From a virus: a stretch of DNA of 59,782 nt. Where the stretch lies: positions 1-59,782 of the IMG/VR virus record IMGVR_UViG_3300028840_006308, one strand, 5' to 3'. A model generated the notes under the pieces. That model was not told the origin of the DNA. It searched no databases and saw only the letters and a list, made by a program, of their open reading frames with translations. How positions within the stretch are numbered: the first letter of the stretch is position 1; every line of letters begins with the position of its first letter. The translations under genes were made by a program, and so were the position numbers. This document shows positions 6,336 to 28,224 of this stretch, piece by piece.

Positions 6336-8204
6336 GTGTCCGACCTACAAGCGGAGCTCATGAAGGCCGTCAAGAAGGAAATGCGAACGACGGCGAAGCA
6401 GGAGGTGCAAAAGGCCGCGCGAGACGCGGTGGAACCCAAGGGCGAGGGCCTTGACGACGACGAGCTGGAGGCGCTGGAGGCCGAGCTCACGGCGGCCGAC
6501 CGCCTGCTTGCGCCCATCGAGGATTACCGGGCCCTATCGGTAATCTCGGGCAAGTCGGTGAGGTGGCTCGCCACCAAGGCCATCGACCCATACAAGTGCA
6601 CGCTGGAGGTCGACCGCCGGGCACCGAAGATCCACAACGGCATAAAGATCAAGACCGGACTCCTGCGCGACTGGAAATTCCAGTGGCCGTTCGACGTCGA
6701 GCGCGTGAAGGAGCGCCTGGAGGAAGAGCTCGGCGGCGAGGAGTACGTCTTCTACCTGCGCGTCGACGGCAAGCCGCTCCGCAGCTGGCCGGTCACCTTC
6801 GACGCCGAGCCGAAGAACCCGCCGACGAATCGCAAGCAGGCGGTCGGCCCCTTCGGCAAGGAGGGCGATCCGCTGGAGAAGGCCCGCAAGGAGGAGGAGA
6901 AGAAGGCCGAGCTCCTGGAGGCGCGCAAGCGCCGCATGCAGATAGAGCGGGAAATAGAGAAGGAGAACCCCGAGCCCGACGACGGAGAGGGCCTCGAGAT
7001 TCCAACCGACATGATCACGCGCGAGGAGGCGGAGGCAATCGCCGCGGACAAACTCGAGAAAGAGCGCCTCGTCAACCGCATGGAGCGAATGCAGATAGAG
7101 AGCGACCGCAAGTTCGAGGCGCTCATGTCGGAGCTGCGGTCCGAGCGCAATAACGGAGGCAGCAGCGAGGTTTTGGTCCAAGCAATCAACCAATCCAGCC
7201 AAAATATGATGGAAGGCCTCAAGCTCGTGGTATCCAACATCGGGACGCAACTTACCTCCGTTCAACAGAATAGCTCCTCTCAATTCGACAACATGCTCAA
7301 GCTCATGCAGTTGTCTCAGGAGAGCTCGAACAAGACCGCGGCGGCCCAGGCCGATGGGAAGGCGCGCGAGACGGATCTGCTACTGCAGCTCGTCACCCAG
7401 AAGTCGGAGAACCAACAGCTGAACGCCGACAGGCAGATGGAGCTGATGCGTATGGGCATGGAGTACGCCGCGCAGTTTGGTGGCGGCGGCGGCAAGGGCG
7501 GCGACCTCGACTGGGCCAACGATGCCGCCGGGACGCTGGTCAAGGTCATCACCGCGAACCTCGCCAAGGACAAGGCCACAGAGGCGGCGGCTGGTGGACA
7601 GCCGGGTGCGCTTCCGGCACCGCAGGAAATAGACGAGGCGCAGGTGAACGCGGCAGCCCAGGAGATAGCCCAGCGCGCGGTAGCGAAACTACGCCGCCAG
7701 GCCCAGCTCCGCAAAGACGCAATCGCGGCGGCGGCAGGTGAGGCGCCTTCCGGAAGTGCTCAGCAGGATGCGGCTACTGTGGACAACCCCCCCCAAACAT
7801 CCCCAGCACAGCCCGCACAACCCGCAGGCGCGGCGGCAGCGCCTGCAGCTCCGGGTGCCCCGGCACAGCCCGCTGGCACACAGGAAACCGCTGGCGGCCA
7901 GGGGTATGCGGTGTTCGTCGCCAAGATGACGGGGCTGCTAAACCACGAGCTCGCCGAGCGCCCGGTCGAGTCCCGCTTTGTTAGCGAGGTGATGGGCGGA
8001 CCGCCCGAGATTCGCCAGCGGGTGGCCGCGGTGCAGAGCATCACCGACCTCATGGACATCGCGGCACCGCACGTAAACCCCGAGCTTATCGGGGAGATAG
8101 GCTCGAAACTCATCGACGAGAAGGCCCAGAACTGGCTCACGCGCAGCATCGTAGAAATCAAGGAGGCCTGCGGGGTTTCCGTAGAGCCCCAGGAGGGGGT
8201 GTAG
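6336..8204 (+). CDS. Large coiled-coil virion-block protein
   Basis: 622 residues, GTG start with GGAGG eight bases upstream. Residues about 50-165 look globular (YRALSVISGKSVRWLATKAI, then GLLRDWKFQWPFDVERVKERL and GEEYVFYLRVDGKPL). Residues 180-400 are charged coiled coil, then glycine-rich, then a proline-alanine-glutamine linker around 470-520. A helical domain closes the protein (LLNHELAERPVESRFVSEV). No ATPase motif is present. Position and form suggest a scaffold, internal or assembly protein, but this is inference. Confidence 0.6.
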   Translation: MSDLQAELMKAVKKEMRTTAKQEVQKAARDAVEPKGEGLDDDELEALEAELTAADRLLAPIEDYRALSVISGKSVRWLATKAIDPYKCTLEVDRRAPKIHNGIKIKTGLLRDWKFQWPFDVERVKERLEEELGGEEYVFYLRVDGKPLRSWPVTFDAEPKNPPTNRKQAVGPFGKEGDPLEKARKEEEKKAELLEARKRRMQIEREIEKENPEPDDGEGLEIPTDMITREEAEAIAADKLEKERLVNRMERMQIESDRKFEALMSELRSERNNGGSSEVLVQAINQSSQNMMEGLKLVVSNIGTQLTSVQQNSSSQFDNMLKLMQLSQESSNKTAAAQADGKARETDLLLQLVTQKSENQQLNADRQMELMRMGMEYAAQFGGGGGKGGDLDWANDAAGTLVKVITANLAKDKATEAAAGGQPGALPAPQEIDEAQVNAAAQEIAQRAVAKLRRQAQLRKDAIAAAAGEAPSGSAQQDAATVDNPPQTSPAQPAQPAGAAAAPAAPGAPAQPAGTQETAGGQGYAVFVAKMTGLLNHELAERPVESRFVSEVMGGPPEIRQRVAAVQSITDLMDIAAPHVNPELIGEIGSKLIDEKAQNWLTRSIVEIKEACGVSVEPQEGV

Positions 8205-8205
8205 C

Positions 8206-8628
8206 ATGACCGACCAGAACAACCAGGCCGCAGGCGCCGCGGGCGAGATCGTGGGCCAGCTGGCCAAAGCCGTAGCCGGTCGCATGATGGGCGACATCCC
8301 CGAGGAGGACAAGGCGGGCATCCTGCAGGACTACACCGAGGAGATAGGCACCTTCAACTTCCTCGTGGGGCACCTGGTCAACACCATGGAGCGGTTCGCC
8401 GTGTACGAGGAGGACTATCGGTGCCGGTCCCTGGTTGACTACATCAAGCTCTGGAACCGGGCCGTGCGCGATGAGGCCTCCGAACGCGACAAGGCCATCG
8501 CCGATGCCGAGGCCGCCCAGGGGCAGGAAGATGCGGAGGCCGCGGTCGACGATGGGCCCCACGAGCCCGAAGATGGCGAAGAAAGCGCGGGAGAGGTCAT
8601 CGAGGCCGACTTCCGCGTGGAAAAGTAG
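8206..8628 (+). CDS. Hypothetical protein with acidic tail
   Basis: 140 residues, one base after the preceding stop, so co-translated with it. Residues 1-95 are helical (GEIVGQLAKAVAGRMMGDI and LVGHLVNTMERFAVYEED); the rest is acidic and probably disordered. Likely partner of the coiled-coil protein. Confidence 0.65.
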   Translation: MTDQNNQAAGAAGEIVGQLAKAVAGRMMGDIPEEDKAGILQDYTEEIGTFNFLVGHLVNTMERFAVYEEDYRCRSLVDYIKLWNRAVRDEASERDKAIADAEAAQGQEDAEAAVDDGPHEPEDGEESAGEVIEADFRVEK

Positions 8629-8639
8629 GCATTGCGGGC

Positions 8640-8669
8640 TTGACTTAAGGAACTGTCAACGATTATAAT
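8640..8669 (+). promoter_or_regulatory. Internal rightward promoter with extended -35 motif
   Basis: TTGACT and a perfect TATAAT with an 18-base spacer. The bases before TTGACT (GGCATTGCGGGC) nearly repeat those at the promoter near 13851 (GGCATTTCAGGC), so both may belong to one regulated late class. Confidence 0.7.
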
Positions 8670-8694
8670 AGCAGTGCATTGAAAAGGGGACTAG

Positions 8695-8730
8695 GGGAGG
8701 CCGGGTACTCGTTCGCGGCTCCGGCCTCCC
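8695..8730 (+). promoter_or_regulatory. 10-bp hairpin in the leader after the 8640 promoter
   Basis: GGGAGGCCGG and its exact complement around a 16-base loop, between the promoter and the Com-like gene. No T tract follows, so it is a leader structure rather than a standard terminator. Confidence 0.5.
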
Positions 8731-8763
8731 TGATTAGGCTTCGGGGGAAGCGGCCTATGCCTG

Positions 8764-8988
8764 GTGACTAGCGGATACCGCGCGATACGCTGTAAAGCCT
8801 GTAATAGATCCCTCTTCCGCGTTCACGCGGGAGAGGGTTTCATTTCCCTGTCGATCAAGTGTCCCTCGTGCAAGGCCAAAGAGCACATCACCATCCGGGA
8901 CTTTACCCCCACAACCGAGCGAATGAACCCAACAGGAGAAGGCGATGTCCTTCCTCGAATCCATTCCTGCGGGGCGGCCGGGAACTAG
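8764..8988 (+). CDS. Mu Com-like zinc-finger protein
   Basis: 74 residues from GTG; the start is uncertain because no strong ribosome site is seen. Residues 8-45 match the Com pattern: IRCKACNRSLFRV, GEGFISLSIKCPSCKAKEH, four cysteines as two CxxC pairs. In phage Mu, Com binds mRNA and activates translation of the Mom DNA-modification gene. No Mom is seen here, so it may regulate another message. It overlaps the transglutaminase-like gene by 44 bases. Confidence 0.65.
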   Translation: MTSGYRAIRCKACNRSLFRVHAGEGFISLSIKCPSCKAKEHITIRDFTPTTERMNPTGEGDVLPRIHSCGAAGN

Positions 8989-9460
8989 CCGCACCATCGG
9001 ACGCATGCGTGAGCTTGCCACGCGCGATGCTCGGAACTGGCGGTTCATCCGCATCGCCACGCGCATCATCGCGGGCTGCCCGCACAAGAGCTACCTGTGC
9101 CACGGCAAGCGCATCCTGCACTTTGTGAAGCGATATGTGCAGTACGTGCCCGACCCGGCCACATCCGTGGAGAATGGGAGCCAGATAGAGCTGGTGCAGG
9201 CGCCCTTCCAGACTTTGCGGCGACGGGCCGGAGACTGCGACGACACCTCGACCCTGGTAGCCGCCCTGGCGATGGCCGTGGGCATCCCCGCGCGTTTCGC
9301 CACCATCAAGGCCGACAAACGGCGCACGGACGAGTTCAGTCACGTGTACGCCGAGCTGCAGGTCAATAACAACTGGATGGGGGCGGACGCCTCCGTCGCC
9401 AAGAGTTACCTGGGATGGCAGCCTCCCGTGCACTACGGGAAGGAAACCTGGAGGATTTAG
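8945..9460 (+). CDS. Transglutaminase-like cysteine protein
   Basis: 171 residues. The papain-like transglutaminase triad is in place: Cys98 in RAGDCDD, His133 in FSHVYAEL and Asp148 in MGADAS. The family cleaves or forms amide bonds. Among virion genes it could cross-link or mature particle proteins, or open peptidoglycan. There is no signal peptide. ATG start with AGGAG upstream. Confidence 0.8.
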   Translation: MSFLESIPAGRPGTSRTIGRMRELATRDARNWRFIRIATRIIAGCPHKSYLCHGKRILHFVKRYVQYVPDPATSVENGSQIELVQAPFQTLRRRAGDCDDTSTLVAALAMAVGIPARFATIKADKRRTDEFSHVYAELQVNNNWMGADASVAKSYLGWQPPVHYGKETWRI

Positions 9461-9462: not shown

Positions 9463-10908
9463 ATGAAGCGCAAGCGCGAGTTTTTCCCCAGCACCCACGT
9501 CGAGGTGACCCGTCGCCAGGGGATAATCCGGGACATCTTCGGGATGGGCAATTTCTACGAGCCGCACGACTTCTATAACCCCCTGAACGTCCGCGGACCG
9601 GAGTTCCGGAGGAAGATAGTCGAGCGCGCCAAGCGCGTCATGGCCAAGGCCCCGGAGCGCCAGCGCCTGGCGGCCACGCGCAAGGTGCTCGCCGAGAAAC
9701 TGGTCACCCGCAAAGGTCCGGCGGTCGGTAAGGCCATCGCCGCGCGGCGCCTGGAGATAGAGGCCCGCAAGAAGGGGCTCAAGCCCATTTCGCCGCGCAC
9801 CAAGGCGCTGGCCAAGATGATCCCCCCGAAGCTCTACCGCAGCCTGCGTTCAGGGCCCAAGGACGACGTCATGCGCCTGCCCGCAACCCGGCAGACCTAC
9901 CTCGTGACCGCGCCCCAGCCGGTGCTTCGAGACGAGTACCAGCTTCCCACTCCGCGGCATGCCTACAACCGGGTGGGCAAACTGGTGGCCCCGGGCAGCG
10001 AGCAGCCCTACGTGGACCCCGCGTCGATCAACGTCCAGACCGATGCCTACCAGCGCACGGCGAACCAGGTCATCCAGGTTAGCCAGGAGCCGCACCCGAC
10101 GTTCTACGACGAGGAGGTGCCCTCGACGTGGTTCAACCCCATGGAGAGCATGACCAAGCGCGGCGACCAGCCCTTTGTCCCCAAGGACCGCGGCATCGGT
10201 GAGCCCGAGAAGACCGCGGTCATCCACGAGAAGGATTACGGGCTCTTCCAGCACATCGACAAGCAGCTGCGCCCGCCCATGCTCATCTCCAAGGAGGAGA
10301 TGGGCTTCCCCTACATGCGCGGCGAGGCACAGCGCTACGCGGGCATGACCAGCGGTGCCGCGGCCGTCACGCCGGTGGACCCCAGCGTCATCAAGGGCCA
10401 GCCCTGGCAGAGCCCGGCCTTCGCGCACCACAATCTGCCCGAGGGCACCATCCAGAACGACCCCGACCCCGAGGCGGGGATGGGCGCATGGCCCTCGGGA
10501 CTCGGCATCGACTCGCGCGAGATGGCGCACAAGCTCTACGACCGCATCAGTTTCCTGGAGCAGGAGATAGAAGGGCTCAACCCGGCCGCCATGGCGGACG
10601 TCGCATCGGACTTCGCGGTCCAGCGCGCGACCATCCAGAGCCTCTTCGAGGACATCGAGAGAACCCCAACGGCGGGCGTGGTGGAGATAGCCAAGTCGGC
10701 GACCTTCATGGCTACGGGGAAATACTACCTCGAGAAGCTCGAGAAGGAGTACGAGAAGGTCTCGAGGGAAGCACCGAGGCCGGTGCCGGTTGTCCACGCC
10801 GAGCCGGTGGTTTCCGAACCCGTCAAGAAGGCCGCGCTCGGCGTCGGAGCCGTAGCCGCGCTCGCAGCCCTGGGCGTCGGCGGATATCTGCTCTATAAGG
10901 CCAGCTAG
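9463..10908 (+). CDS. Membrane-anchored virion protein with IRDIFGMG motif
   Basis: 481 residues. ATG at 9463 chosen because GGAGG lies upstream. Basic N-terminus, then IIRDIFGMGNFYEPHDFYNP (about residues 22-41), a long low-complexity and polar middle (many proline-rich and extended segments), and one C-terminal membrane helix, residues about 456-478 (LGVGAVAALAALGVGGYLLY). The FGMG motif recurs in the next protein. Likely a virion membrane protein facing the capsid. Confidence 0.65.
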   Translation: MKRKREFFPSTHVEVTRRQGIIRDIFGMGNFYEPHDFYNPLNVRGPEFRRKIVERAKRVMAKAPERQRLAATRKVLAEKLVTRKGPAVGKAIAARRLEIEARKKGLKPISPRTKALAKMIPPKLYRSLRSGPKDDVMRLPATRQTYLVTAPQPVLRDEYQLPTPRHAYNRVGKLVAPGSEQPYVDPASINVQTDAYQRTANQVIQVSQEPHPTFYDEEVPSTWFNPMESMTKRGDQPFVPKDRGIGEPEKTAVIHEKDYGLFQHIDKQLRPPMLISKEEMGFPYMRGEAQRYAGMTSGAAAVTPVDPSVIKGQPWQSPAFAHHNLPEGTIQNDPDPEAGMGAWPSGLGIDSREMAHKLYDRISFLEQEIEGLNPAAMADVASDFAVQRATIQSLFEDIERTPTAGVVEIAKSATFMATGKYYLEKLEKEYEKVSREAPRPVPVVHAEPVVSEPVKKAALGVGAVAALAALGVGGYLLYKAS

Positions 10909-10919
10909 GAGGCATACTG

Positions 10920-11654
10920 ATGGCCCGCATCGGCTGCAACCGCAATTATATAAGAGACTTCTTTGGAATGGGTACCTACGCCTGCCTTCCCAGGCTTGAG
11001 CGCCCAGACGAACATGCCCAGGTCGTGAATCGGGGCATGGGCGACCTGTACTCCGAGAGTGAGGCGCGCGGGATCCTTGATGCAGCCAACGCAGCGGCGA
11101 CCAGCGCTCAGGCCGCCTATAACAAGGCGTATCCCGAGCTGGTGAAGACCCAGGTCGACACGCTCTACAAGAAGAGCCTGCCCGCGATGCGTCAAGCCCT
11201 GGGGCGTGCCGAGGCGCAGTTTACCGCCGAGCTCGAGAAGCCGTTCTATGTGAACAGCGACTACGACCTCGCCGTGAAGAACGCGCGCCAGGCCGAGACC
11301 TACGCCAAGAACATCATCGCGGATATCGCCGCCTTCCTGCGCTACAACCGCGACGAACGCGAGCGCCTGAAGGACATGGAGGCCCAGCGCCAGTTGGCCT
11401 TGAAGCAGGCCGTTTCGGACGAGGAGGTCAAGGCCGCCCAGGGGGGGCTCGTAGCCTATGCGGGATTCAAGGCCAAGGAGGCGGGCGAGGAGCTCGGGGA
11501 GACCACGAAGCAGATAGCCGAGGGGATGATGGGGGCGTTAACGGGGTTCCTGAAGGGCATCCCCTGGTGGATGTGGGTGCTCGGGCTCGGGGTCGCGGGT
11601 GCGTACATCGCCGGTCCGGCGCTCGCCACCCGGGCCTTGGCGCGGCGCGCATAA
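10920..11654 (+). CDS. Membrane-anchored virion protein with IRDFFGMG motif
   Basis: 244 residues. The N-terminus NYIRDFFGMG repeats the motif of the preceding protein. The middle is helical (EARGILDAANAAATSAQAAY to RLKDMEAQRQLALKQAVS). The last 45 residues hold a membrane helix (IPWWMWVLGLGVAGAYIAGP) and a basic end. AGGAGG lies upstream of the ATG. Confidence 0.65.
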   Translation: MARIGCNRNYIRDFFGMGTYACLPRLERPDEHAQVVNRGMGDLYSESEARGILDAANAAATSAQAAYNKAYPELVKTQVDTLYKKSLPAMRQALGRAEAQFTAELEKPFYVNSDYDLAVKNARQAETYAKNIIADIAAFLRYNRDERERLKDMEAQRQLALKQAVSDEEVKAAQGGLVAYAGFKAKEAGEELGETTKQIAEGMMGALTGFLKGIPWWMWVLGLGVAGAYIAGPALATRALARRA

Positions 11655-11669
11655 CGGGAGGACGGTTCC

Positions 11670-12086
11670 ATGGAAGAATGGATCAACTCGCAGATGATGC
11701 ACGAGCGGTCGGGAGGCCGTTTCGGCTCCATGGAAGGCGGCCCCGCCTATCACGTCGTGGCGGGGACCGACATTCAAATCACCGGAGCGGGCACCACCGA
11801 AGAACCCGGCGGATACGAACTCGACGAGCTCAGCGCCGAGATGCGCAGCATCCTCGACGTGCCCCGGCCCGCGGTGGGCATCGTGGACGAGACGGGAACG
11901 GTGCGCGAGATGGTCGGTGCCGGGGCGAGTCCCGACGTAACCGTAACCGCCCCGCGGGAGTATGCACCCGACTACTCGCAGATTTCGCCTGTAACGCCCG
12001 CGCCCAATACCGATGCGGGCAAGTTGCTCAAGGTCGGCATCGCGGCGGCGGTCCTCGTCGGCGCCTGGATGTGGTTTAAGGGGTAA
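11670..12086 (+). CDS. Small membrane-anchored virion protein
   Basis: 138 residues. Polar, glycine- and threonine-rich body (YHVVAGTDIQITGAG) and a C-terminal membrane helix, residues about 119-135 (LKVGIAAAVLVGAWMWF), with a lysine at the end. No known family. Confidence 0.65.
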   Translation: MEEWINSQMMHERSGGRFGSMEGGPAYHVVAGTDIQITGAGTTEEPGGYELDELSAEMRSILDVPRPAVGIVDETGTVREMVGAGASPDVTVTAPREYAPDYSQISPVTPAPNTDAGKLLKVGIAAAVLVGAWMWFKG

Positions 12087-12089
12087 GGC

Positions 12090-13127
12090 ATGGCCAAGAA
12101 GAAGAAAGCCAAGAAGCGCAAGGCCAAGAAGGCCGTCAAACGCAAGAAGAAGAACCCGGCCATGAAGCCCAGGAAACGGCCGCTGGCGAAGGCCACCAAG
12201 AAGGCTCGGCGCAAGAAGGTCGCCAAGGCGCTCAAGAGCAACAAGGTGCCCAAAGCCCCCAAGGGCTACAAGCTCTGGAACCAGGTGCTCTACAAGCGCA
12301 TGGCCGACCAGGTGGCCGACCGCCTGCGCAAGGAGGGCAACCTCGCCCGGGTCGTGAAGGGCTACGACCCGAAGATATTCTCGGGCGAAGGGCACGACGT
12401 TTACACCGTGTTCTACAAGCGCGCTTCGAGGCCTCCGAAGCCCGTGCCTGTCAAGTTCAACCCGGAGAAGTACAAACGCACGCGCATCGCCGACCCGCGC
12501 GAATTCGACTCGCGCTCCTTCCGCGTGAAGAACGTACCCGGCAAGAGCCACAAGCTCGTCGTGGCCTGCCCCATCGGCTCCTGGGACGCCAAGACGGGCC
12601 GCTGCAAGGCGGGGATGGAAGTGCAGTCGGTCCTCACGGAGAAAAAGCCCCGCGGCAAGAACCCGTTGCTGATGGTGGTCCCGAACAAGAAGAAGGCCAA
12701 GAAGGCGAAGAAGAAGCCCAAGCGCAAGAACCCGCTGCTGATGGTCGTGCCGAACAAGGGCAAGAAGAAGGAGAAAAACCCCCCGAAGGGCTGGCACGAG
12801 AAGCAGCGCCGCGAGTACGCCAAGCGCATGGCCGAAGATCTGAAGGCCGAGCACGGCAAGGGCGCGGACTACTGGCAGGGCGCCACCTCGGCGGAGGCTC
12901 GCGCAGTGGCGGCCAACGCACCGCGCATTCGCAAGTTGATGGCCATCAAGAAGCGCGGCAAGGCAGGGATGGTCGACGGCCGCAAGGTCTCGGCCCCCCT
13001 GGCGAGCGCCATCGTGAAGTGCTACGCGCAGCTGGATGCGGCGGGCAAGCGGACCTTCGGCAAGGCGCCACTCGACCGCATGGTGGCCGTGGTCCAGCGC
13101 CTGCACGGCCGCGGAGTGCTCAAGTAG
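12090..13127 (+). CDS. Lysine-rich, histone-H1-like protein with KNPLLMVVPNK repeats
   Basis: 345 residues. Residues 1-60 are almost wholly lysine, arginine and alanine. A small globular region follows (residues about 60-180), with WNQVLYKRMADQVADRLRKE. KNPLLMVVPNK appears twice (about residues 190-200 and 213-223) between lysine runs. The C-terminal third is helical (DYWQGATSAEARAVAANAPR and LDAAGKRTFGKAPLDRMVAV). It is likely to bind nucleic acid or the particle membrane and to help condense the genome. The repeat has no known role. Confidence 0.65.
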   Translation: MAKKKKAKKRKAKKAVKRKKKNPAMKPRKRPLAKATKKARRKKVAKALKSNKVPKAPKGYKLWNQVLYKRMADQVADRLRKEGNLARVVKGYDPKIFSGEGHDVYTVFYKRASRPPKPVPVKFNPEKYKRTRIADPREFDSRSFRVKNVPGKSHKLVVACPIGSWDAKTGRCKAGMEVQSVLTEKKPRGKNPLLMVVPNKKKAKKAKKKPKRKNPLLMVVPNKGKKKEKNPPKGWHEKQRREYAKRMAEDLKAEHGKGADYWQGATSAEARAVAANAPRIRKLMAIKKRGKAGMVDGRKVSAPLASAIVKCYAQLDAAGKRTFGKAPLDRMVAVVQRLHGRGVLK

Positions 13128-13136
13128 GGAGGTCCC

Positions 13137-13790
13137 ATGGCGAAGCGTAAGCTACCCGATCACGTTGATAAGTGGTTCAAGACGCGCGCGGAGGCCATGG
13201 CCTACAAGCGCAAGGTGGACAAGACGGGCCGCGTGGCGACCTTGCCCCGGAAGTTCAAGGGCAAGTGGATAGTCCGCTCGACGCGTCACTCCCTGAAGGC
13301 TCCGTCGCTCTGGAGCATCCGCCAGGCGGAGAAGCGCGCGGCGGCCAAGCGGAAGGCCAAGCGCAAAGCCTCTAAGCCCAAGAAGGCCAAGGGGAAAGCG
13401 AAGAAGGGCAAGAAGAAGGCCCGTCGTAACCCCGGCACCAAGTTGTCGGCCGCCGATATGCAGGAGCTCATGAAGGATCCCGAGTTCAAGAAGGCCCTCA
13501 AGCTCTACCGGAAACTGCACGGGTGCGACCCCGAGAGCATCTCGCGCCGGGTACTTCCCATCGGCGGCAAGCGGGTCACCGGGCGCGAGTTCTTCGTTTC
13601 TATGGGAAAGGCGCCTGCGGAGAGCTACGAGCCCCACCAGAAGAACTCCAAGAAGAAGGGCACCATCTGGGTGCATCCCTACGACGACAAGCCGGAGAAG
13701 GTGGTTTCGGCCGATGGCAAGACCATCATCACGATGCCTGGTAGCCACGCGGTGCGGGTGATCGACGGCGAGGCGTGGATCGACGGATAG
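13137..13790 (+). CDS. Lysine-rich basic protein
   Basis: 217 residues. N-terminal region with WFKTRAEAMAYKRKVDKTGR resembles a small beta-hairpin/helix domain. Residues 60-98 are lysine- and alanine-rich, ending KKARRNPG. The second half looks globular (EFKKALKLYRKLHGCDPESI, then GREFFVSMGKAPAESYEP and GSHAVRVIDGEAWIDG). Probably a nucleic-acid-binding virion protein. GGAGG precedes the ATG. Confidence 0.65.
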   Translation: MAKRKLPDHVDKWFKTRAEAMAYKRKVDKTGRVATLPRKFKGKWIVRSTRHSLKAPSLWSIRQAEKRAAAKRKAKRKASKPKKAKGKAKKGKKKARRNPGTKLSAADMQELMKDPEFKKALKLYRKLHGCDPESISRRVLPIGGKRVTGREFFVSMGKAPAESYEPHQKNSKKKGTIWVHPYDDKPEKVVSADGKTIITMPGSHAVRVIDGEAWIDG

Positions 13791-13850
13791 GCTTTCTGGC
13801 AAGGAACGTCAAGACAGAGCCAAGAAAAGGAGAAACAAGGCATTTCAGGC

Positions 13851-13880
13851 TTGACTCGGTAGCCCCGCGCACTGTAAACT
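13851..13880 (+). promoter_or_regulatory. Promoter upstream of the capsid operon
   Basis: TTGACT then TAAACT with an 18-base spacer (or TGTAAA with 16). The preceding bases match those of the 8640 promoter. A strong terminator lies between it and the next gene. Confidence 0.6.
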
Positions 13881-13886
13881 ACCTGC

Positions 13887-13986
13887 GGAGCGAGTTAGAG
13901 CCCAAACAACGGACATCCAAGTAGGGCCGTAGAGAGCCCCGCGATCTGAGGCGCACGACGCCTCCTTTCGCGGGGCTTTTTGTTTT
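13887..13986 (+). ncRNA. Possible short RNA or antitermination leader
   Basis: A promoter and a strong intrinsic terminator bracket about 100 bases with no open frame of note. It is either a small stable RNA or an attenuated leader whose readthrough controls the capsid operon. No family is recognised. Confidence 0.4.
13935..13986 (+). terminator. Intrinsic terminator
   Basis: A 10-bp stem (13935-13944 with 13968-13977) encloses a second 6-bp hairpin (13948-13953 with 13959-13964) and is followed by TTTTTGTTTT. This is the clearest intrinsic terminator in the window. Confidence 0.85.
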
Positions 13987-13998
13987 GGGAGGTTTTCG

Positions 13999-15099: not shown

Positions 15100-15165
15100 G
15101 CGGATGTTCCGCTCGGGCCGTAACGGCAGAGTGGTCTTTACCCTAACGGGAAGGAGCACAGTGAG

Positions 15166-15774: not shown

Positions 15775-15803
15775 AGGCGGAAAGAAAAACGACCGGGGGA
15801 GCT

Positions 15804-15827: not shown

Positions 15828-15897
15828 TTCCCCTCCGGCCCATACAAAGGAACTTCTTTCGTCTGGGTGGCTTTTTAGCCGGAAAGGAGTCGCAGAG

Positions 15898-18319: not shown

Positions 18320-18327
18320 GGTGAAGG

Positions 18328-18915: not shown

Positions 18916-18924
18916 GAGCGGTAA

Positions 18925-21900: not shown

Positions 21901-22149
21901 ACCTGGGCCGATACGCACACCGACTCGGTGGGCTTCTTCGGGCAGGATATGTGGGAGGACACGAAGAGCGGCGACATCTACGTAATGTTCCGCGATAACG
22001 CGGGCAACACCGGGGGGCGCATCATCCGCAGCGCGGATAACGGCGCCACCTGGGCGGCATGGTTCAACAGCCTCCTGGATATCTGCGGCCAGGGCGGCGT
22101 GGCCGTGGTTGCCCCGAGAGCGTTTGCGTTTGGCGGTTCCCGGCGATGA
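18925..22149 (+). CDS. Giant spike/receptor-binding protein: beta-solenoid plus Asp-box propeller
   Basis: 1,074 residues from TTG with AGGAG upstream. The N-terminus (DWHDGNNWSLSSGGAGGAG and DDVIFDNNS) and residues to about 690 are repetitive beta, with recurring units such as GDQNVIN and WNINKPSGTL, typical of a beta-solenoid. Residues about 720-1074 carry Asp-box motifs SIDDGVTW (938), STDGGLTW (988) and SADNGATW (1036), spaced 48-50 residues as in sialidase or sortilin propeller blades. It probably binds host surface sugar; no catalytic residues could be assigned. Confidence 0.75.
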   Translation: MATKYFIGGTTGGFNQGFSNGFNIGTPDKDWHDGNNWSLSSGGAGGAGVPGASDDVIFDNNSPDCQLTANGNCRDFTITATCPSDVDLNGFTLDIEDAVSVDVAGGASITPNLGTVLLSTGGSRTVDFGGEVLYNLTHSAGDSVTYVDTNVSNEFRITTGYRINGTINVQGDVRSTTSALNSTQTGRVILDGTGAQEVYVDKLGGSADFPAILVNKGGGVATLYDRIVMPTAGATAGLSSGLATLDALTQQPTLVSERFTHFDFNGARIWRVEQRTNGFTMQYMSDVGVVDQFYLATVTNTTGGNKINLEGDLRLGDTGALSSTSVTIEFMGTGDQNVINDDPSDYSLPWNINKPSGTLFLGSDIIRFSANTNITWTYTQGTVDPGTATLDFNSQRSKTINLTAGDFTVYNLKLGTGGVYATNINTNKFLVENVFTLQGGGSTQTLNGSIEVGGNIINTRTGGTTNGTFNVTINGSGDQTIDGNAANFHTGAWIVNKPSGSLKLISDLSLNDTSTDLTVTQGTLDLDGFDITVSRNFTVNDGLALTGAETITVGGAFTLNPAASSVLYHGAATAVLNNLATAFFNLNLDRDTDGKTIQTTAGTTITLNGEVTTNGTNGTPTLIRSTISGTQAKWNLVGTQSLLNAVDVQDNDASGGLPFYVFGSVDSGNTINWFFTTLAGAVQQHAQISVVMPQQGVLVGGAFAFDMMNYHGPLAAGGGGVFPGPGSTYSIFTAGFTDAPGGGNVIAGYNHVTSQFDILTLVPGASPYELVVSPTHVAGVVAAVPTATTRSSPWPVTAFGNGSFPANQDIGAGANRKGAVRAGNILYASETNAVGGTFVQSSADGLAWAQLGIQASAAPAQPRCLYVLQSGTILMIDDNGCLRSNTGGASWTTPALPGLPVGTILGAMFSEITAGGTIFLLISSVSGAFQGSRLYRSIDDGVTWALVYDESISGPYTANWIDSSNVRMVAMTANIIVVSYNYWVMRSTDGGLTWADTHTDSVGFFGQDMWEDTKSGDIYVMFRDNAGNTGGRIIRSADNGATWAAWFNSLLDICGQGGVAVVAPRAFAFGGSRR

Positions 22150-22361
22150 GCGAGGAGACATCCGTGTCGAAAAGCAAGATAAACACCAACCTGTTGCAGG
22201 CCATCGGTGACCCCACGTCGAAGGACGCCGCGCTGAAGGACATTCTACTGGACCTCGACGCGCGCATCAGCAAGATGGAGAAGATAGGGTGGCTAATCCT
22301 GGTGGGGTTAGCGGCCCTTGGCGGGAAAGAGATCATCTTTTCGATGATCACGAAGCTCTGA
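22146..22361 (+). CDS. Small membrane protein
   Basis: 71 residues, start overlapping the spike stop as ATGA. A polar helix (KDAALKDILLDLDARISKME) is followed by one membrane helix, residues about 48-68 (WLILVGLAALGGKEIIF). Layout resembles XhlA-type phage membrane proteins, but a virion role is equally likely. Confidence 0.6.
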   Translation: MSEETSVSKSKINTNLLQAIGDPTSKDAALKDILLDLDARISKMEKIGWLILVGLAALGGKEIIFSMITKL

Positions 22362-22372
22362 GGAGAAATGCC

Positions 22373-22810
22373 ATGCTGTTCGGACAGGACACGAACTTCT
22401 TCGAGAACGGAAACGGACTGGGGCAGTTCGAGCTCCAGGAGCTCGGCAGCGGGGCCATGGAGGCCACCACCAAGCTCAACATCTGGGGCAAGCTCGGGGA
22501 GATGACCAAGAACATCACGAACAACCTGATGGAGAAAATCCCCGACATCGCCGGAGATGCGCTGGGCACCCTGGTCCAGGCCAAACTCAGCGAGAAGATT
22601 CTCGGCGACATGGGCGGCGGTGGGGAGGACAGCAAGACCCAGACCATCGTCAAGCGCGAGATAATCGAGCGCCAGGTACCGGTTTCGGCCGCGCCCGTGC
22701 AGCCCACGGCACAGGCCGCAAAGGAGGGCCTGCCGGGCTGGGTTATCCCCGCAGGCATCGGCGCGGCGGTCCTGGTCGGCCTGGTGGGCTACAAGGCCCT
22801 CAAGAAGTAG
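22373..22810 (+). CDS. Membrane-anchored virion protein
   Basis: 145 residues; ATG at 22373 with AGGAG upstream. N-terminus LFGQDTNFFENGNGLGQFEL, amphipathic helices in the middle, and a C-terminal membrane helix, residues about 124-141 (WVIPAGIGAAVLVGLVGY), followed by KALKK. No known family. Confidence 0.65.
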   Translation: MLFGQDTNFFENGNGLGQFELQELGSGAMEATTKLNIWGKLGEMTKNITNNLMEKIPDIAGDALGTLVQAKLSEKILGDMGGGGEDSKTQTIVKREIIERQVPVSAAPVQPTAQAAKEGLPGWVIPAGIGAAVLVGLVGYKALKK

Positions 22811-22896
22811 CCGAGAAAGGGCCATTGCTGCCCCATGACAGGGGGGCACACGGCGTTTTCTCGGGAAATGCGCCCCGCAAGGGCAGGAGAAGGGAA

Positions 22897-23112
22897 ATGA
22901 GACCTCAGAGCTTCTTTGCACCTGGTGCACTGCCTTACGGCACGGACACGGGAGTCTACCTGCGTGAGGGCGCGTTTGAAGAGCACGGCCTCGGCCAAGC
23001 CGAGGAAAAAGAGGATCCGGTCACCGCATTCGCCCGCCGTTGGGGGGATGTGATCAAGTTGGCGGCCACAGTAGGCTTGCTGATAAAGTTCGTAGCACCC
23101 AAGCTCAAGTAA
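22897..23112 (+). CDS. Small membrane-anchored virion protein
   Basis: 71 residues; start chosen after AGGAGAAGGGAA. The N-terminus SFFAPGALPYGTDTG is extended and polar; residues about 51-68 (VIKLAATVGLLIKFVAP) are a weak membrane helix. The segment 22811-22896 before it holds no gene. Confidence 0.6.
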   Translation: MRPQSFFAPGALPYGTDTGVYLREGAFEEHGLGQAEEKEDPVTAFARRWGDVIKLAATVGLLIKFVAPKLK

Positions 23113-23128
23113 AAGGAGGCATAGGACC

Positions 23129-23449
23129 ATGGCCAAGAAGAAAGCGAAGACGAAACCCGCGAGCAAGCGCAAGGACGCCGCTGTGGCGAACCGCGCGCCG
23201 AAGGTGCTGAAGTCGAAGGCCAAGCCTCGGCTGAAGGCCAAGATGGACGCAGGCCTCGAGGCCGCGCTGGCCGCCGTAGCAGGCCGGGACGCCAAGGGCG
23301 CCGCCGCCGCGCTCGGCAAGGTCAAGCTCAAGGACAAGGCCGCCCAGGGCAAGGTCAAGGATGCGCTCGCGGCCCTGAAGTCCGGGTCGCTAGCCAAAGC
23401 GCGCGTCTGCATCGGCCAGGCACGGACCTTCCTGCTCAACGCCGAGTAA
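23129..23449 (+). CDS. Lysine/alanine-rich histone-H1-like protein
   Basis: 106 residues. Residues 1-45 are lysine-rich (AKKKAKTKPASKRKDAAVAN); the rest forms alanine/lysine helices (GRDAKGAAAALGKVKLKDKA). Composition is that of bacterial H1-like nucleoproteins, so DNA condensation in the particle is likely. Confidence 0.65.
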   Translation: MAKKKAKTKPASKRKDAAVANRAPKVLKSKAKPRLKAKMDAGLEAALAAVAGRDAKGAAAALGKVKLKDKAAQGKVKDALAALKSGSLAKARVCIGQARTFLLNAE

Positions 23450-23456
23450 GCGCTCC

Positions 23457-25952
23457 ATGCTGCGCGACTGGGAAACGTCTGCCATCTTCCCGAAGGGGAA
23501 GTGGTACAACACCGGGGCCAATCCGGCGGGGCAGGCCAACGCCATCGCCGAGATGTTCTTCGAGAAGGCGTTTCCCAAGCTGGTGCCACCCCTGGAGGCG
23601 GGCGCGGGCATCCTGTCGGCCAAGCCGCAAGCTATTAGCCTGTTCTACGAGTACGAGGCACCGCCCTCGCCGAGTACTTTCGCCGCGGAGTACGCCGCCG
23701 ACGTCCAGGCCGAGGTGGGGCCCATTCCCGCGGGGCTGGGGCAGGTAAAGGTCGACACCGAGGAGCTGGTCAAAGACGCCGCTGTATCGGCCGTGAAAAA
23801 GGCCGCCATCGAGGCGGTGGCCAAGGGCGTGGCCATGCAGATAGGTGCCGAGGCGGTACCTGTCGCCAAGCTGGCCATCGCGGTCGCCGACGTGGTGAAG
23901 GACTACAAGTCCATCGTCGAGGACGAGAGCGCGCGGTGGTCGGCGGCCTTCGGGCTAACCAGCGCGGTGGCGGCGGCGTTCGCCATCCCCGTAGTGGGCC
24001 AGTTGGCGGCCATCGGCGCGCTCGCCAAGGGATTCATCGACTTCCGCCAGGCCAAGGAGGAAATCGAAAAGCAGAAGCGTGCGTCCGAGGAGCTGTCCAA
24101 GATGCTGCGCAGCAGCATCGACGCGGTCATGCCCGAGGTGCAGGCGCTGGTTGAGACCATCCAGTCGCGCGGATACGGCATCGACCCGAAGGGCACCGAG
24201 GCATTCCGGAAAGACCTCCTCAAGCACTATCGCGCGCTCCTGGCCACCAAGCTCAAGCGGTCGCCGTTCAAGACGCCCACGGCGCCGTATGAGGCGGCCC
24301 GCAAGCAGATGGCGGCGCAGGCCAGCGAGCTCGAGGGCTACTTGAAGTCCAAGGTCTACAGCGACAAGGCTTGGGGCAACTTTACCCGGCAGCTAATCAA
24401 GCCGCCGACGCCCAGCCTCGAGAGCTTCTTCGAGAAGGTCGACGATGCGCTGGGTAAGAGCTCATACATCCCGCGCGGGTCGGGGCTGTCGGGCCTGGGG
24501 TTCGGCATGCCCGGAAGCAGCATCGACGAGAAACTGTTCCAGGCCGCCCAGGCGGCCCAGAAGAAGTCCAAGCCGTACATCGCTCCGGAGAAAGAGCGCC
24601 AGGCGGCTATCTACCAGCAACTCACCACGCAGCCCACGACCGTTTTCGCGCAGCCGTTGCCGATAGACAGGGAGCTCTTCGCGCGCTTCTGGCGGGTGGA
24701 TCCCGATAAGTTGCCCGACGTCGAGTACCGCATCACCGATGACGCAGGCAGGGGCCTGGGTTACACGACCACGCTGCGCAAGCAGTACGATCAGCTCAAG
24801 ACGGCCATGGAGAAGGCGCTGGGCGACACGGTGGGCGCGGGCGAGCTGTCGGGGCTTAAGTCCTGGCGCTCGAAGTGGTTATCGGCCTGGAAGGACTACG
24901 ACAAGAAACGCGAGGCGCTCTTTGAGTCGGTCGCGGGCCTTCCCCGCGGCGGCGAGCTCACCGGCGAGGACGACTGGCTGGTCAAGGCCGTCGGCCAGGA
25001 CAACATGCTGCGCTATGAACGTGGCCGCAACGCGGCGCTGTTCCTGCTCGGCAAGCACGGAGGCTTTGCCACGGTAAGCGCGATGCAGGCCAAGGGCGGC
25101 ATCGGCGACTGGAAGGACGCGCTCTGGACCGCCGACTACTGGAACGACACGGTCATGCCCATCTACAACAAGATGATGGAGCAGCGCTGGGGTCGGCGCG
25201 ACATGGTGCGGGCCTTCCTGCAGTTGGCGCGCGACATGCGCAAGGTCCGCCTGGCGCTCGAGAAGTTGCCTCCGTACCTCTTCGAGAACGAGGTTAAGAT
25301 GCTGGGCGAGGCCATCGTGGCCGCCGACTCGCTGATTCCGATGTCCTTGGCGGTGGCCATCGCGGCGGATCTCCTGCAACCCATCAAGGGCCGGGCGCTT
25401 ACGCCCGCCCAGCGCAAGCAAGTGGGCGGAAGCATCGCCAAGCGCATCGTCGAGCGCTCCAGAACAGCGCTCCTAACCGCCCGATTCACGCCCGATTACG
25501 TCATGGGCCTGCTCGTGCCCCCCGTCACCGAGTACTTCGCGCTCATGAAGGGCCTCACGGGCAAGATATCGGCCCTTCCGCGCCCCGAGGGCGATGCCCC
25601 CACCCCTGAGTACAACGAGGCACTGGCGGCGATTGTGGCCGAGCACGAGGCCCCCCTGAAGGCGTTGACGGAGAAGTACTCCCAGGCCGTCAAGGTCTAC
25701 AAGCCGGGAGTGGTGTCCGAGGCTATTGGCGCCATACTCAAGGAGATAGGAGTAGAGGAGCAGCGAGGGCGCATCGCGGATGCGATTGCGGCCAAGCTAG
25801 GTGGCGAGTTTACGCGGTTTGCGGCCGCCGAGCTCATCTACCGGGCGACTACTACGCCCGCGGACAAGTTCCTGGCCAGCGTCGGCGCTCCCAAAGGCGG
25901 CCTTTTGCCCCTCGCCGCCGCCGCCGCTGGCCTGGTTTACCTGTTGGGATAG
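23457..25952 (+). CDS. Large membrane-associated virion protein
   Basis: 831 residues, the largest protein after the spike. Residues about 95-200 are hydrophobic and helical (AAFGLTSAVAAAFAIPVVGQ), the long middle is helical with tryptophan-rich parts, and the last 18 residues GGLLPLAAAAAGLVYLLG form a terminal membrane anchor shared with the next protein. Could be a membrane-organising or vertex/DNA-delivery protein. No lytic or ATPase motif. Confidence 0.6.
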   Translation: MLRDWETSAIFPKGKWYNTGANPAGQANAIAEMFFEKAFPKLVPPLEAGAGILSAKPQAISLFYEYEAPPSPSTFAAEYAADVQAEVGPIPAGLGQVKVDTEELVKDAAVSAVKKAAIEAVAKGVAMQIGAEAVPVAKLAIAVADVVKDYKSIVEDESARWSAAFGLTSAVAAAFAIPVVGQLAAIGALAKGFIDFRQAKEEIEKQKRASEELSKMLRSSIDAVMPEVQALVETIQSRGYGIDPKGTEAFRKDLLKHYRALLATKLKRSPFKTPTAPYEAARKQMAAQASELEGYLKSKVYSDKAWGNFTRQLIKPPTPSLESFFEKVDDALGKSSYIPRGSGLSGLGFGMPGSSIDEKLFQAAQAAQKKSKPYIAPEKERQAAIYQQLTTQPTTVFAQPLPIDRELFARFWRVDPDKLPDVEYRITDDAGRGLGYTTTLRKQYDQLKTAMEKALGDTVGAGELSGLKSWRSKWLSAWKDYDKKREALFESVAGLPRGGELTGEDDWLVKAVGQDNMLRYERGRNAALFLLGKHGGFATVSAMQAKGGIGDWKDALWTADYWNDTVMPIYNKMMEQRWGRRDMVRAFLQLARDMRKVRLALEKLPPYLFENEVKMLGEAIVAADSLIPMSLAVAIAADLLQPIKGRALTPAQRKQVGGSIAKRIVERSRTALLTARFTPDYVMGLLVPPVTEYFALMKGLTGKISALPRPEGDAPTPEYNEALAAIVAEHEAPLKALTEKYSQAVKVYKPGVVSEAIGAILKEIGVEEQRGRIADAIAAKLGGEFTRFAAAELIYRATTTPADKFLASVGAPKGGLLPLAAAAAGLVYLLG

Positions 25953-25961
25953 GAGTCGAAC

Positions 25962-26213
25962 GTGGCCAAAGACCTGCGCCGAGAGGACATCGTTGCGGAA
26001 GTACGCGAGCAGACCTACGACATCCTCGCGGCCGCAAGCGAAATCCCCCTGCCGGTGGCCGCCCGCGCGGCGGCCAAGCTGGTGGTGGACAGGTCGGTGA
26101 CCCCGGTCGATTCCGGCGATGCGAGGGAGATAGAGGCTGAGAGCAAGAAGGGTGGCCTGCTGCCTTTACTGGCAGCAGTCGCAGGTGTAGCATTGCTGGC
26201 CACGGGAGGCTGA
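25962..26213 (+). CDS. Small membrane-anchored virion protein
   Basis: 83 residues from GTG, nine bases after the preceding stop. Its end KGGLLPLLAAVAGVALLATG repeats the terminal anchor of the 831-residue protein. The N-terminal part is helical and charged (DIVAEVREQTYDILAAASEI). Confidence 0.65.
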   Translation: MAKDLRREDIVAEVREQTYDILAAASEIPLPVAARAAAKLVVDRSVTPVDSGDAREIEAESKKGGLLPLLAAVAGVALLATGG

Positions 26214-26214
26214 C

Positions 26215-26403
26215 ATGTTGGCGAAACTTGGAGAGGCCGTAGCGAACCGCCTTCTTGGCAAGGTCGACAAGAACCCCACGATGATCGACTGGCAGATGAT
26301 CCAGTTGATGGCGTTCGGCACCGCAATCTTCGCGGGCTACATGCTGTGGCGCAAGGAGAAACGCGAAGAGGAAATCGTGCAATCGAGAGGAGGCGAGAAA
26401 TGA
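26215..26403 (+). CDS. Small single-span membrane protein
   Basis: 62 residues. One membrane helix at about residues 26-42 (IQLMAFGTAIFAGYML) then a charged tail (WRKEKREEEIVQ). It overlaps the next gene as ATGA. Confidence 0.65.
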   Translation: MLAKLGEAVANRLLGKVDKNPTMIDWQMIQLMAFGTAIFAGYMLWRKEKREEEIVQSRGGEK

Positions 26404-27086
26404 GGTTCCCGTCCTACAAGGAGCGCCGTTGGCGCCTGCGCGAGACGTTCGCGCTGTTCCTGGGCACTGGCTTGATGACTTTCGTGTTCGCGGGCTGCAT
26501 CCGCGAGGGCACCCGGGTCACGCTCGACCGCAACAAGAAGTCCCTGCCGACCTTGAAGAAGGTCACGCCCGCCGAGGCGCATCCGGGCATCGACGCCATG
26601 ACCGCCGAGAACGAGCAGGCGGCCCGTAACGTCGGTGCGCCGAAAACACCCGCCACGCCCATAGATTTCGGCAAGGATACCACCAACCAGGCCGGAACCA
26701 TCGAGGCGCGCACGAACGCCGCCGAGCTCAAGAAGCAACTGGATGCTGCCGAGACGCGCAACAAGTGGCTCCTGGGCATAGGCATGGGCCTGCTGGGGCT
26801 CCTTGGCGCCAAGGGGATATGGATAAAGCGCCTCATCAACGTGGGCCGGAGCCTGAAACAGAACCTCGGCCAAGCCGAGGGTCAGGTGAACAGCCTGGTG
26901 GAGGCCACGCAGGAGACCATCGCGCAGGCCAAGGACAAGCCCATCTCGGCGGACATGGTCAAGAAGATTCACCGCGAGTACCAGGAGGTGCACGGCACCT
27001 GGCACACGCTTAAGGACTTGGTGGCGAAAACGAAGGCGGTATGGGAGGCGGGCCAGCCCGCGTCCGCGGCAAAGGGAGGCAAGTGA
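26400..27086 (+). CDS. Membrane protein with lipobox-like N-terminus and coiled coil
   Basis: 228 residues. An N-terminal hydrophobic segment (TFALFLGTGLMTFVFAGC) could be a signal anchor or lipoprotein signal. A second membrane helix is at about residues 122-140 (WLLGIGMGLLGLLGAKGIW). Helices follow (LKQNLGQAEGQVNSLVEATQ). Possibly a virion or spanin-like envelope protein; its role is not clear. Confidence 0.55.
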   Translation: MRFPSYKERRWRLRETFALFLGTGLMTFVFAGCIREGTRVTLDRNKKSLPTLKKVTPAEAHPGIDAMTAENEQAARNVGAPKTPATPIDFGKDTTNQAGTIEARTNAAELKKQLDAAETRNKWLLGIGMGLLGLLGAKGIWIKRLINVGRSLKQNLGQAEGQVNSLVEATQETIAQAKDKPISADMVKKIHREYQEVHGTWHTLKDLVAKTKAVWEAGQPASAAKGGK

Positions 27087-27316
27087 TGTCAGAGCTGGAA
27101 AGCCCGATAGACGAGCAGGTTCTGTGGGACGCGCTGATGGATAACTATAGCCCAGAGGCTATTGTGGCCATGCACGCGATTCTGGACGCATACGTCGGCC
27201 AGATACCAAATGCGCAGGTCAAGGGCCAGCTGCGCTACTTCCGGAACATGCTCGAAGAGTTGATCGAGGCCAGCGGCGAGAACTACAACGAGCTGCTGGA
27301 CCAGGCAGGACTCTAA
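27086..27316 (+). CDS. Small acidic helical protein
   Basis: 76 residues, starting one base before the end of the upstream gene with GGGAGG upstream. All-helical sequence (DEQVLWDALMDNYSPEAIV, RYFRNMLEELIEAS). No known domain. Confidence 0.6.
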   Translation: MSELESPIDEQVLWDALMDNYSPEAIVAMHAILDAYVGQIPNAQVKGQLRYFRNMLEELIEASGENYNELLDQAGL

Positions 27317-27328
27317 GGAGGCAACGCG

Positions 27329-27556
27329 ATGACGGTTTGGGTGGTGATGGTGTGGCCCCGCGGCGAACAGATGCCTGTGGTGGATGTCTACGATGACGTC
27401 GAGGCGGCCGAGGCGCTGGCCTACGACTGGCTAGAGGAAGAGCACGGGCTCGACCGCGAGGACGTCTTTGAAGATGCCGACGAGAAAGAGGGCATGGTCC
27501 GGTACCTGGACGACGACGGGGGCCTTCTCGGCGCCCTGGTGATGCGCCAGGCGTAG
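27329..27556 (+). CDS. Small acidic hypothetical protein
   Basis: 75 residues. A beta start (TVWVVMVWPRG) resembles short phage proteins such as the one at 1287; the rest is acidic helix and hairpin. GGAGG precedes the ATG. Confidence 0.6.
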   Translation: MTVWVVMVWPRGEQMPVVDVYDDVEAAEALAYDWLEEEHGLDREDVFEDADEKEGMVRYLDDDGGLLGALVMRQA

Positions 27557-27567
27557 GGGTTCCGTGC

Positions 27568-27795
27568 TTGACGACCAACGACGACATGCACAAAGCGGTC
27601 CAGCGGGCCGTGCGCGACGAGAGGACCCGGGTGATGAGCGCGCTGCTAAAGCTGCGCAACCGGATCGACGGCATGGCCAAGATGTGCGCCGGAAACGGCG
27701 AGACCGCCGCCGAGGCTTACGAGGCCGCCGCAGGGCAGGTGGCCGCTTTCATAACCGAACAGTTCGGAGATGTGCCGGACGCATTGGGGAGGTAG
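27568..27795 (+). CDS. Small helical hypothetical protein
   Basis: 75 residues from TTG (an ATG lies 18 bases in). Helical throughout (MHKAVQRAVRDERTRVMSAL, AAEAYEAAAGQVAAFITEQF). Not recognised. Confidence 0.55.
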   Translation: MTTNDDMHKAVQRAVRDERTRVMSALLKLRNRIDGMAKMCAGNGETAAEAYEAAAGQVAAFITEQFGDVPDALGR

Positions 27796-27801
27796 GCACC
27801 C

Positions 27802-28224
27802 ATGGCTACCACGCGCAGCGAGATGATCAAGGCGATGGTGTTCGAGACGTTGAAGGAGAACGGGAACTATCCCCGTGCACCGCGATATCGCCAGTTCTTT
27901 GGCCAGAATTGCGCGCCAATCGTTGAGGGCGGCGATGTGCATCGTCAAACGGGACTCGGCGCCGACATCATCACCAAACTGATTAACGTCGCGGGCGAGG
28001 CCATCGCCATCCCCGAAGGGGCCCCCACGCCGGGGCAGCTGTACGCCGAGGCCGCGCCGCGCGTGCAGCGGATCCTCAAGCAATACGACGAGGCCTCCCC
28101 GCACATCGACTGGGTCAACCGCAACTGGCCGACCCTGGCGATAACCCTGATCCTCGGCGGCACCGTGGCCGTCGTGGGCGGGAACGCGCTCTACGACTGG
28201 CTCAAGAAGCCCCGCAAGAAGTGA
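27802..28224 (+). CDS. Membrane-anchored protein, last gene of the virion block
   Basis: 140 residues. The N-terminal half contains RYRQFFGQNCAPIVEGGDVH; a membrane helix spans about 111-130 (TLAITLILGGTVAVVGGNAL), followed by a basic end KKPRKK. The C-terminal anchor matches the pattern of other proteins in this block. Confidence 0.65.
   Translation: MATTRSEMIKAMVFETLKENGNYPRAPRYRQFFGQNCAPIVEGGDVHRQTGLGADIITKLINVAGEAIAIPEGAPTPGQLYAEAAPRVQRILKQYDEASPHIDWVNRNWPTLAITLILGGTVAVVGGNALYDWLKKPRKK

Follow-up and report, generated by a model that had tools for sequence, protein, structure and literature searches.

A virion gene block without a recognised packaging motor in a 60-kb virus genome related to Salisaeta icosahedral phage 1

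Introduction

How a large and apparently tailless virus fills its particle when no packaging motor can be recognised among its genes is the question raised by positions 6336-28224 of the IMG/VR virus record IMGVR_UViG_3300028840_006308, of which all 59,782 bases (hereafter the window) were analysed. An earlier, sequence-only reading had taken this block for the virion genes of a tailless, membrane-containing virus of a new group. Here the block is interpreted, with a probability of roughly 0.6, as encoding the virion of a tailless double-stranded DNA (dsDNA) phage whose genome is apparently circular and complete. The phage would belong to a little-described group resembling Salisaeta icosahedral phage 1 (SSIP-1) and probably assembles without an FtsK-type motor.

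Results

Completeness of the genome

Positions 1-144 of the window are identical to positions 59639-59782, forming an exact direct repeat of 144 bp at the contig ends, which agrees with a molecule of about 59638 bp (about 59.6 kb) that is probably circular, circularly permuted or terminally redundant. Given this repeat, the genome is probably complete, and the absence of a motor gene is therefore meaningful. By a codon-usage gene caller run on the whole window, 122 genes were predicted, among which 28 with good ribosome-binding sites form a dense plus-strand block at 6336-28224, flanked on both sides by minus-strand blocks.

A structural protein shared with SSIP-1

The relationship to SSIP-1 is carried by one gene of the block:

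8945-9460, plus strand: transglutaminase-like (papain-fold) cysteine protein, homologue of the SSIP-1 structural protein gp34.

The protein was matched by Pfam Transglut_core (3.6e-12) and by PDB entry 3isr (9.5e-5). When ten concatenated virion proteins were compared with 50,697 phage records, SSIP-1 was the sole organism matched. The product of 8945-9460 matched gp34, annotated as a structural protein in the SSIP-1 record, at 1e-8 by tblastn and 7e-16 by blastp, and its Cys98, His133 and Asp148 are identical in gp34 in the alignment. A group profile built without the window protein recovered it at 1.6e-20 and the protein of a related contig (contig C, see below) weakly (7e-6). Of all virion components, only this transglutaminase-like protein was detected by sequence in each of the lineages examined. 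Related-locus searches with transglutaminase alignments, synthetic variants included, found only SSIP-1, and those with single capsid proteins found nothing. No match was obtained by direct megablast and single-protein tblastn of the window against phages, or with the concatenated virion proteins against plasmids.

SSIP-1 is a membrane-containing phage of 100 nm with T=49 and a circular dsDNA genome of 44 kb, and the genome of HHIV-2 is 30 kb (PMC6260650); the earlier statement that known tailless membrane phages have genomes of about 10-20 kb is therefore wrong. Both SSIP-1 and the window have a genome well above 40 kb with a sign of circularity, integrase and PAPS reductase genes, and a similar order of coiled-coil, transglutaminase-like, membrane, small beta and spike proteins. 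They differ in size (44 versus 60 kb), in the capsid proteins, which are only weakly similar, and in the gp40 ATPase, sigma factor and primase-like genes of SSIP-1, none of which was recognised in the window. SSIP-1 has been cultured and is proven tailless. In the window, the sign of an internal membrane is the enrichment of membrane helices.

Search for a packaging motor in the window

The Pfam and PHROGs matches listed for 115 proteins of the window included no family of terminase, portal, tail, HK97 capsid or FtsK; one weak PHROG match is to a tail fibre (5e-5), another to a head scaffold (0.003). A profile search for FtsK-type ATPases, proposed in the sequence-only reading, was run directly for FtsK together with a direct search for TerL, and neither gave a match in the window. 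The hallmarks of Caudoviricetes were not found in the window, namely the large terminase subunit (family scans and direct TerL search) and the HK97-fold capsid and portal (listed family matches; the fold matches of the capsid candidate described below were not HK97), and neither was the FtsK/HerA packaging ATPase of Helvetiavirae (Sphaerolipoviridae and relatives). The Walker A pattern GxxxxGK[ST] occurred once in the 122 predicted proteins, in the following gene:

5031-5633, minus strand: Cys-rich protein of 200 residues with the only Walker-A-like string, GSTCVGKT; no family match.

Because this string sits within a CxxC...C context, it was judged not to be a P-loop, and the protein, which has no family match, was rejected as a P-loop protein; no credible P-loop or Walker A protein was found among the 122. 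The library scans and direct searches agree with the earlier claim that the window holds no terminase, portal, tail or Walker-A packaging ATPase, and none of the results that had been named as refuting it (HK97 fold, terminase or portal) appeared in the searches run.

Related records

Relatives, all from metagenomes, were found with hand-made DNA patterns of the conserved YVPDP...DCD motif. These searches were noisy: one pattern mostly matched an unrelated short protein and another gave several chance or unrelated open reading frames. Three of these relatives have end repeats: contig C (77.7 kb, repeat of 120 bp), contig D (79.6 kb, repeat of 127 bp) and contig F (109.5 kb, repeat of 110 bp). 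The others are contig A of 69.3 kb, of which B is a shorter copy, and contig E of 44.9 kb. The family of the capsid candidate 15166 (see below), used as the next query, yielded a 62-kb contig within a Planctomycetota metagenome-assembled genome (MAG) obtained from a bog, as well as four further viral records (34-97 kb); some of these records are near copies of one another or of E. Gene order is similar in SSIP-1, A, C and the window, with a multi-helix protein between the membrane and small beta proteins, and A and D share capsid candidates of their own. The supposed new group is therefore not wholly isolated, being a distant relative of the cultured, unclassified SSIP-1; its novelty holds for breadth and size, with records from 34 to 109.5 kb.

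Direct searches gave no FtsK match over the cut-off and no TerL match in A, C, D, E, F and SSIP-1. The P-loop proteins of the relatives are few and of replication, repair or nucleotide-metabolism types: DnaB in C, Sak4-like protein and helicases in A, AAA_24, UvrD-type and kinase-like proteins in D, and a helicase in F. No terminase, portal or tail family was among the matches listed for 46 large proteins of F (PHROGs) and 73 large proteins of C and D (Pfam). It is very improbable that the window derives from a tailed phage with head and packaging genes too diverged to be detected. Its minus-strand genes do match families common in phage collections (PHROGs), but no TerL, portal, HK97 or tail match was listed in the window, nor in A, C, D and F as searched, and the proven tailless SSIP-1 is the only phage-database relative of the virion block.

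Capsid candidates

Small beta-rich capsid candidates, as claimed earlier, are present at two adjacent genes:

15166-15774, plus strand: probable small major capsid protein, single jelly roll, 202 residues; assigned from homologues, structure model and fold search.
15898-16773, plus strand: two-domain beta protein, 291 residues; candidate large capsid protein (VP17-like) or vertex/spike protein.

The 15166 protein is homologous to a capsid candidate in F and E (4.6e-5) and to that of the Planctomycetota MAG type. On present sequence comparisons, homology of the capsid candidates seems restricted to part of the group. An AlphaFold2 model of 15166 built with ten homologues was mainly beta (predicted local distance difference test, pLDDT, 59.6; predicted template modelling score, pTM, 0.62). 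The PDB list returned for it by Foldseek was dominated by jelly-roll proteins, both viral capsids and TNF, and the capsid of Sulfolobus polyhedral virus 1 (SPV1) ranked third as a weak match (E 0.059; template modelling score, TM, 0.37-0.40). In the viral library BFVD, the only match below 0.001 was I1ZBH9 (211 residues, E 3.2e-4), with I1ZBI0 (256 residues) sixth; these are consecutive accessions, and their lengths are exactly those of the consecutive SSIP-1 proteins gp46 and gp47, with which they are probably identical, respectively. Searches of PDB sequences with 15166, its profile and 15898 gave nothing useful, including no sequence match to the SPV1 capsid. The structure comparison proposed earlier thus gave weak jelly-roll matches from a low-confidence model for 15166, while for 15898 the model was poor and its fold list was not used.

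An internal tandem duplication was detected in 15898 (repeat score 69, against a maximum of 57 in 2000 shuffles), and its C-terminal half is homologous to F55796 of contig F (1.5e-8). Such a duplication would suit a two-barrel large capsid protein like VP17 of the Thermus phage P23-77. In that phage, the small, single-barrel capsid protein VP16 and the larger, two-domain VP17 are encoded side by side (PMC4958249). The adjacent 15166 and 15898 would match VP16 and VP17, respectively. The window differs from P23-77 and other Helvetiavirae in that the FtsK/HerA packaging ATPase of that kingdom was not found, its genome is two to three times larger and no sequence similarity was found.

Paralogous copies of the capsid-like domain were observed in F (L062:7300-8346) and in the Planctomycetota MAG contig (L069:9608-10507), joined there to a DNA-binding N-terminal part that resembles BrnA antitoxin.

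Other genes of the virion block

The remaining genes described in the block, all on the plus strand, are as follows:

6336-8204, plus strand: coiled-coil-rich protein, 622 residues, immediately upstream of the transglutaminase-like gene, the same place as SSIP-1 gp33 and C22236.
9463-10908, plus strand: probable virion membrane protein of 481 residues, with a membrane helix at its C-terminus and G[LM]G motifs.
10920-11654, plus strand: 244 residues, GMG motifs at the N-terminal end; a membrane helix at the C-terminus is probable but falls below the strict cut-off.
11670-12086, plus strand: 138 residues, probable C-terminal membrane helix, below the strict cut-off.
12090-13127, plus strand: very basic protein (30% K+R); candidate genome-condensing virion protein.
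13137-13790, plus strand: very basic protein (28% K+R); candidate genome-condensing virion protein.
13999-15099, plus strand: multi-helix protein with basic N-terminus, hydrophobic region and C-terminal DYL-type repeats.
16763-17380, plus strand: 205 residues, G[LM]G twice in the N-terminal part; by position only (as SSIP-1 gp48), a candidate for a minor capsid or vertex role.
17480-18319, plus strand: candidate spike, 279 residues, weak match to the Mtd second domain (E 0.0039, below the Pfam cut-off).
18925-22149, plus strand: repetitive candidate receptor-binding spike, 1074 residues, C-terminal BNR/Asp-box-like repeats (E 1.7e-5, below the Pfam cut-off).
22146-22361, plus strand: small protein with C-terminal membrane helix; start placed at 22164 by the gene caller.
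22373-22810, plus strand: 145 residues, N-terminal GLG motif and C-terminal membrane helix.
22897-23112, plus strand: 71 residues, GLG motif and C-terminal membrane helix.
23129-23449, plus strand: basic protein by composition, 106 residues (26% K+R).
23457-25952, plus strand: 831 residues, several hydrophobic stretches and G[LM]G motifs.
25962-26213, plus strand: 83 residues, single C-terminal membrane helix.
26215-26403, plus strand: 62 residues, possible membrane helix, below the strict cut-off.
26400-27086, plus strand: 228 residues, lipobox-like N-terminus (FVFAGC) plus a second helix; SSIP-1 gp50 starts alike.
27802-28224, plus strand: 140 residues, GLG motif and C-terminal membrane helix.

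No sequence homology was detected between 6336-8204 and SSIP-1 gp33 or C22236, and the likeness is one of position. The multi-helix gene 13999-15099 directly precedes the capsid gene, as do F72524, E10494, A50653, D50668, C25689 and gp44 of SSIP-1 in their genomes; it is like F72524 in place and layout and weakly so in sequence (profile E 0.05-0.2; P 0.055). The spike genes of the sequence-only reading stay as candidates, the Mtd-like and BNR-repeat matches being weak and below the Pfam cut-off.

Membrane helices, counted with a strict 19-residue hydropathy cut-off, were enriched in the block (9 of 28 genes, versus 5 of 94 minus-strand genes); the hits in 8945 and 18925 are probably false positives. 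Eleven proteins had been listed earlier as having one likely membrane helix. Seven of them (9463, 22146/22164, 22373, 23457, 25962, 26400 and 27802) passed and four (10920, 11670, 13999 and 26215) fell below the cut-off, while 22897-23112, absent from that list, passed.

Enrichment of the G[LM]G motif, noted across 9463-28224, is about 2.5-fold for the virion blocks of the window, A and F; it is weaker in SSIP-1 and not seen in C or D. Copies of the motif often lie close to the N-terminus in proteins that have a C-terminal membrane helix, and it occurs also in SSIP-1 structural proteins. It may mark maturation or processing sites for the transglutaminase-like protein; this cleavage-site idea is kept as a lead only, because the motif is not enriched in C or D and is weaker in SSIP-1. 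Enrichment of [KR]NP motifs was confined to two virion blocks, those of the window and F.

Gene content outside the virion block

The matches listed in the Pfam and PHROGs scans of the window included two integrase-like genes, PAPS reductase, a radical SAM protein, HU, DNA methylase, RNase T, DUF5131 and FliS. No DNA polymerase, helicase or primase was recognised among them in this 60-kb genome with 122 genes, one weak PHROG match naming a polymerase exonuclease subunit. From this gene content, replication appears to be largely host-dependent. The lack of recognised replication enzymes and motor, together with the two integrase-like genes, might also suggest that the element is plasmid-like or a satellite, with packaging left to a helper virus; this is the least credible of the alternatives, as the window has a large virion block of its own, with capsid and spike candidates, that is longer than that of a typical satellite.

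Four further minus-strand genes were observed. A full-length transfer-messenger RNA gene lies at 56341-56693 (Rfam 123.5 bits, E 8e-48); its predicted tag of 29 residues is odd in that it ends in ...GLCP and not in a degradation signal of the usual LAA type. At 46368-46745, a flagellin chaperone, FliS, encoded by the virus (Pfam 1.8e-35) hints at a flagellated host or at interference with flagella. The product of 30508-31914 (468 residues) has a lipobox-like start and no family match, and that of 29891-30505, with an HExxH-like stretch (AHEVGH), is a probable metallopeptidase, possibly for lysis.

Discussion

The proposal of a tailless, membrane-containing virion without a recognisable motor is supported in part, the absence of the motor by sequence only. 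In the most probable arrangement, an icosahedral shell would be built from the small single-jelly-roll protein 15166, with the neighbouring 15898 as a second capsid or vertex protein, and an internal membrane beneath it would carry the multi-helix protein 13999 and many single-helix proteins. The transglutaminase-like cysteine protein 8945 may act as a processing enzyme. Condensation of the DNA may fall to the basic proteins 12090, 13137 and 23129 and the N-terminus of 13999, and 17480 and 18925 would bind the receptor. As no motor is recognisable in the window and neither FtsK nor terminase was found in the relatives, membrane and shell most likely assemble around an already condensed genome, as in other ATPase-less tailless viruses, instead of being filled by a motor.

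Several points weigh against this interpretation. We know of no cultured precedent for motor-free packaging of a genome of 60-110 kb. The low pLDDT of 15166 and the lack of a PDB match at E <= 0.001 (Foldseek) leave the capsid fold weakly supported. Profile comparison of the 15166 family with SSIP-1 gp45/46 was weak with a plausible register (P 0.0037, probability 9%), and no profile similarity to the capsid candidates of A/D or C was found. The model of 15898 was poor for want of homologues (pLDDT 41.7); F55796 lies far from the capsid gene in F, among spike-like genes, so that 15898 is perhaps not a main shell protein and may have a vertex or spike role. Finally, gp40 of SSIP-1 has been called a predicted packaging ATPase (PMC4124505).

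A motor of the window's own that went unrecognised, either a highly diverged ATPase among the large virion proteins without annotation (6336, 9463 and 23457) or a non-P-loop mechanism, is judged, with a host motor, the main rival to condensed-genome assembly; we consider it possible, at rather long odds. Several large window proteins have no family, and SSIP-1 does have gp40 as a virion-associated ATPase; against this, no credible Walker A was seen in the window, and the best Pfam family of gp40 is AAA_25 (5e-11), with a sub-threshold FtsK match (E 0.004), which does not place it in FtsK/HerA. A gp40 homologue was also absent in blastp comparisons with the window and the relatives, so that no counterpart of this virion ATPase was found in the window. 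A host DNA translocase (FtsK, HerA or helicase) filling the particle is less probable again and should be regarded as unlikely. Among the family matches of the window no polymerase or helicase was recognised, so that it would already depend heavily on the host; F and D, however, carry their own polymerase or helicase genes and still give no FtsK or terminase match.

Condensed-genome assembly would have small counterparts. SPV1 (Portogloboviridae) is tailless with a single-jelly-roll capsid, FLiP (Finnlakeviridae) is a membrane-containing bacterial phage, both lack a packaging ATPase, and a metagenomic group of double-jelly-roll viruses likewise lacks one (PMC8812541). The window would resemble SPV1 in a single-jelly-roll, ATPase-less design, and differs in that SPV1 is an archaeal virus whose capsid gives a weak structural match only; it would resemble FLiP in its membrane and lack of a packaging ATPase, and differs from the 9-kb single-stranded DNA genome and double-jelly-roll capsid of FLiP. 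Tailless membrane phages, single-jelly-roll shells and ATPase-less assembly are thus each already known. What is new is their combination in genomes of 60 to about 110 kb, four of them with end repeats (the window, C, D and F), tied to the cultured SSIP-1, a combination not found in the literature searched; beside the small precedents, the size, the breadth and the SSIP-1 link are new.

The known ATPase-less tailless phages are small (9 kb in FLiP, about 20 kb in SPV1), and evolutionary models treat the ATPase as a later gain, acquired by helvetiaviruses. As a tentative extension that we hold to be less likely than the reading of the block itself, the group may represent a deep lineage, widespread and with genomes of about 44-110 kb, whose tailless single-jelly-roll phages use no ATPase of their own for packaging. 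It would have branched off close to portogloboviruses and helvetiaviruses, either before FtsK was gained or beside that gain, and its basic nucleoproteins would condense genomes several-fold the size of those in any ATPase-less tailless virus known. If true, a group reaching about 110 kb without a motor would mean that large genomes can be packaged in another way, or would expose a motor that has gone unrecognised, and SSIP-1, long an orphan, would become the cultured entry point to the group.

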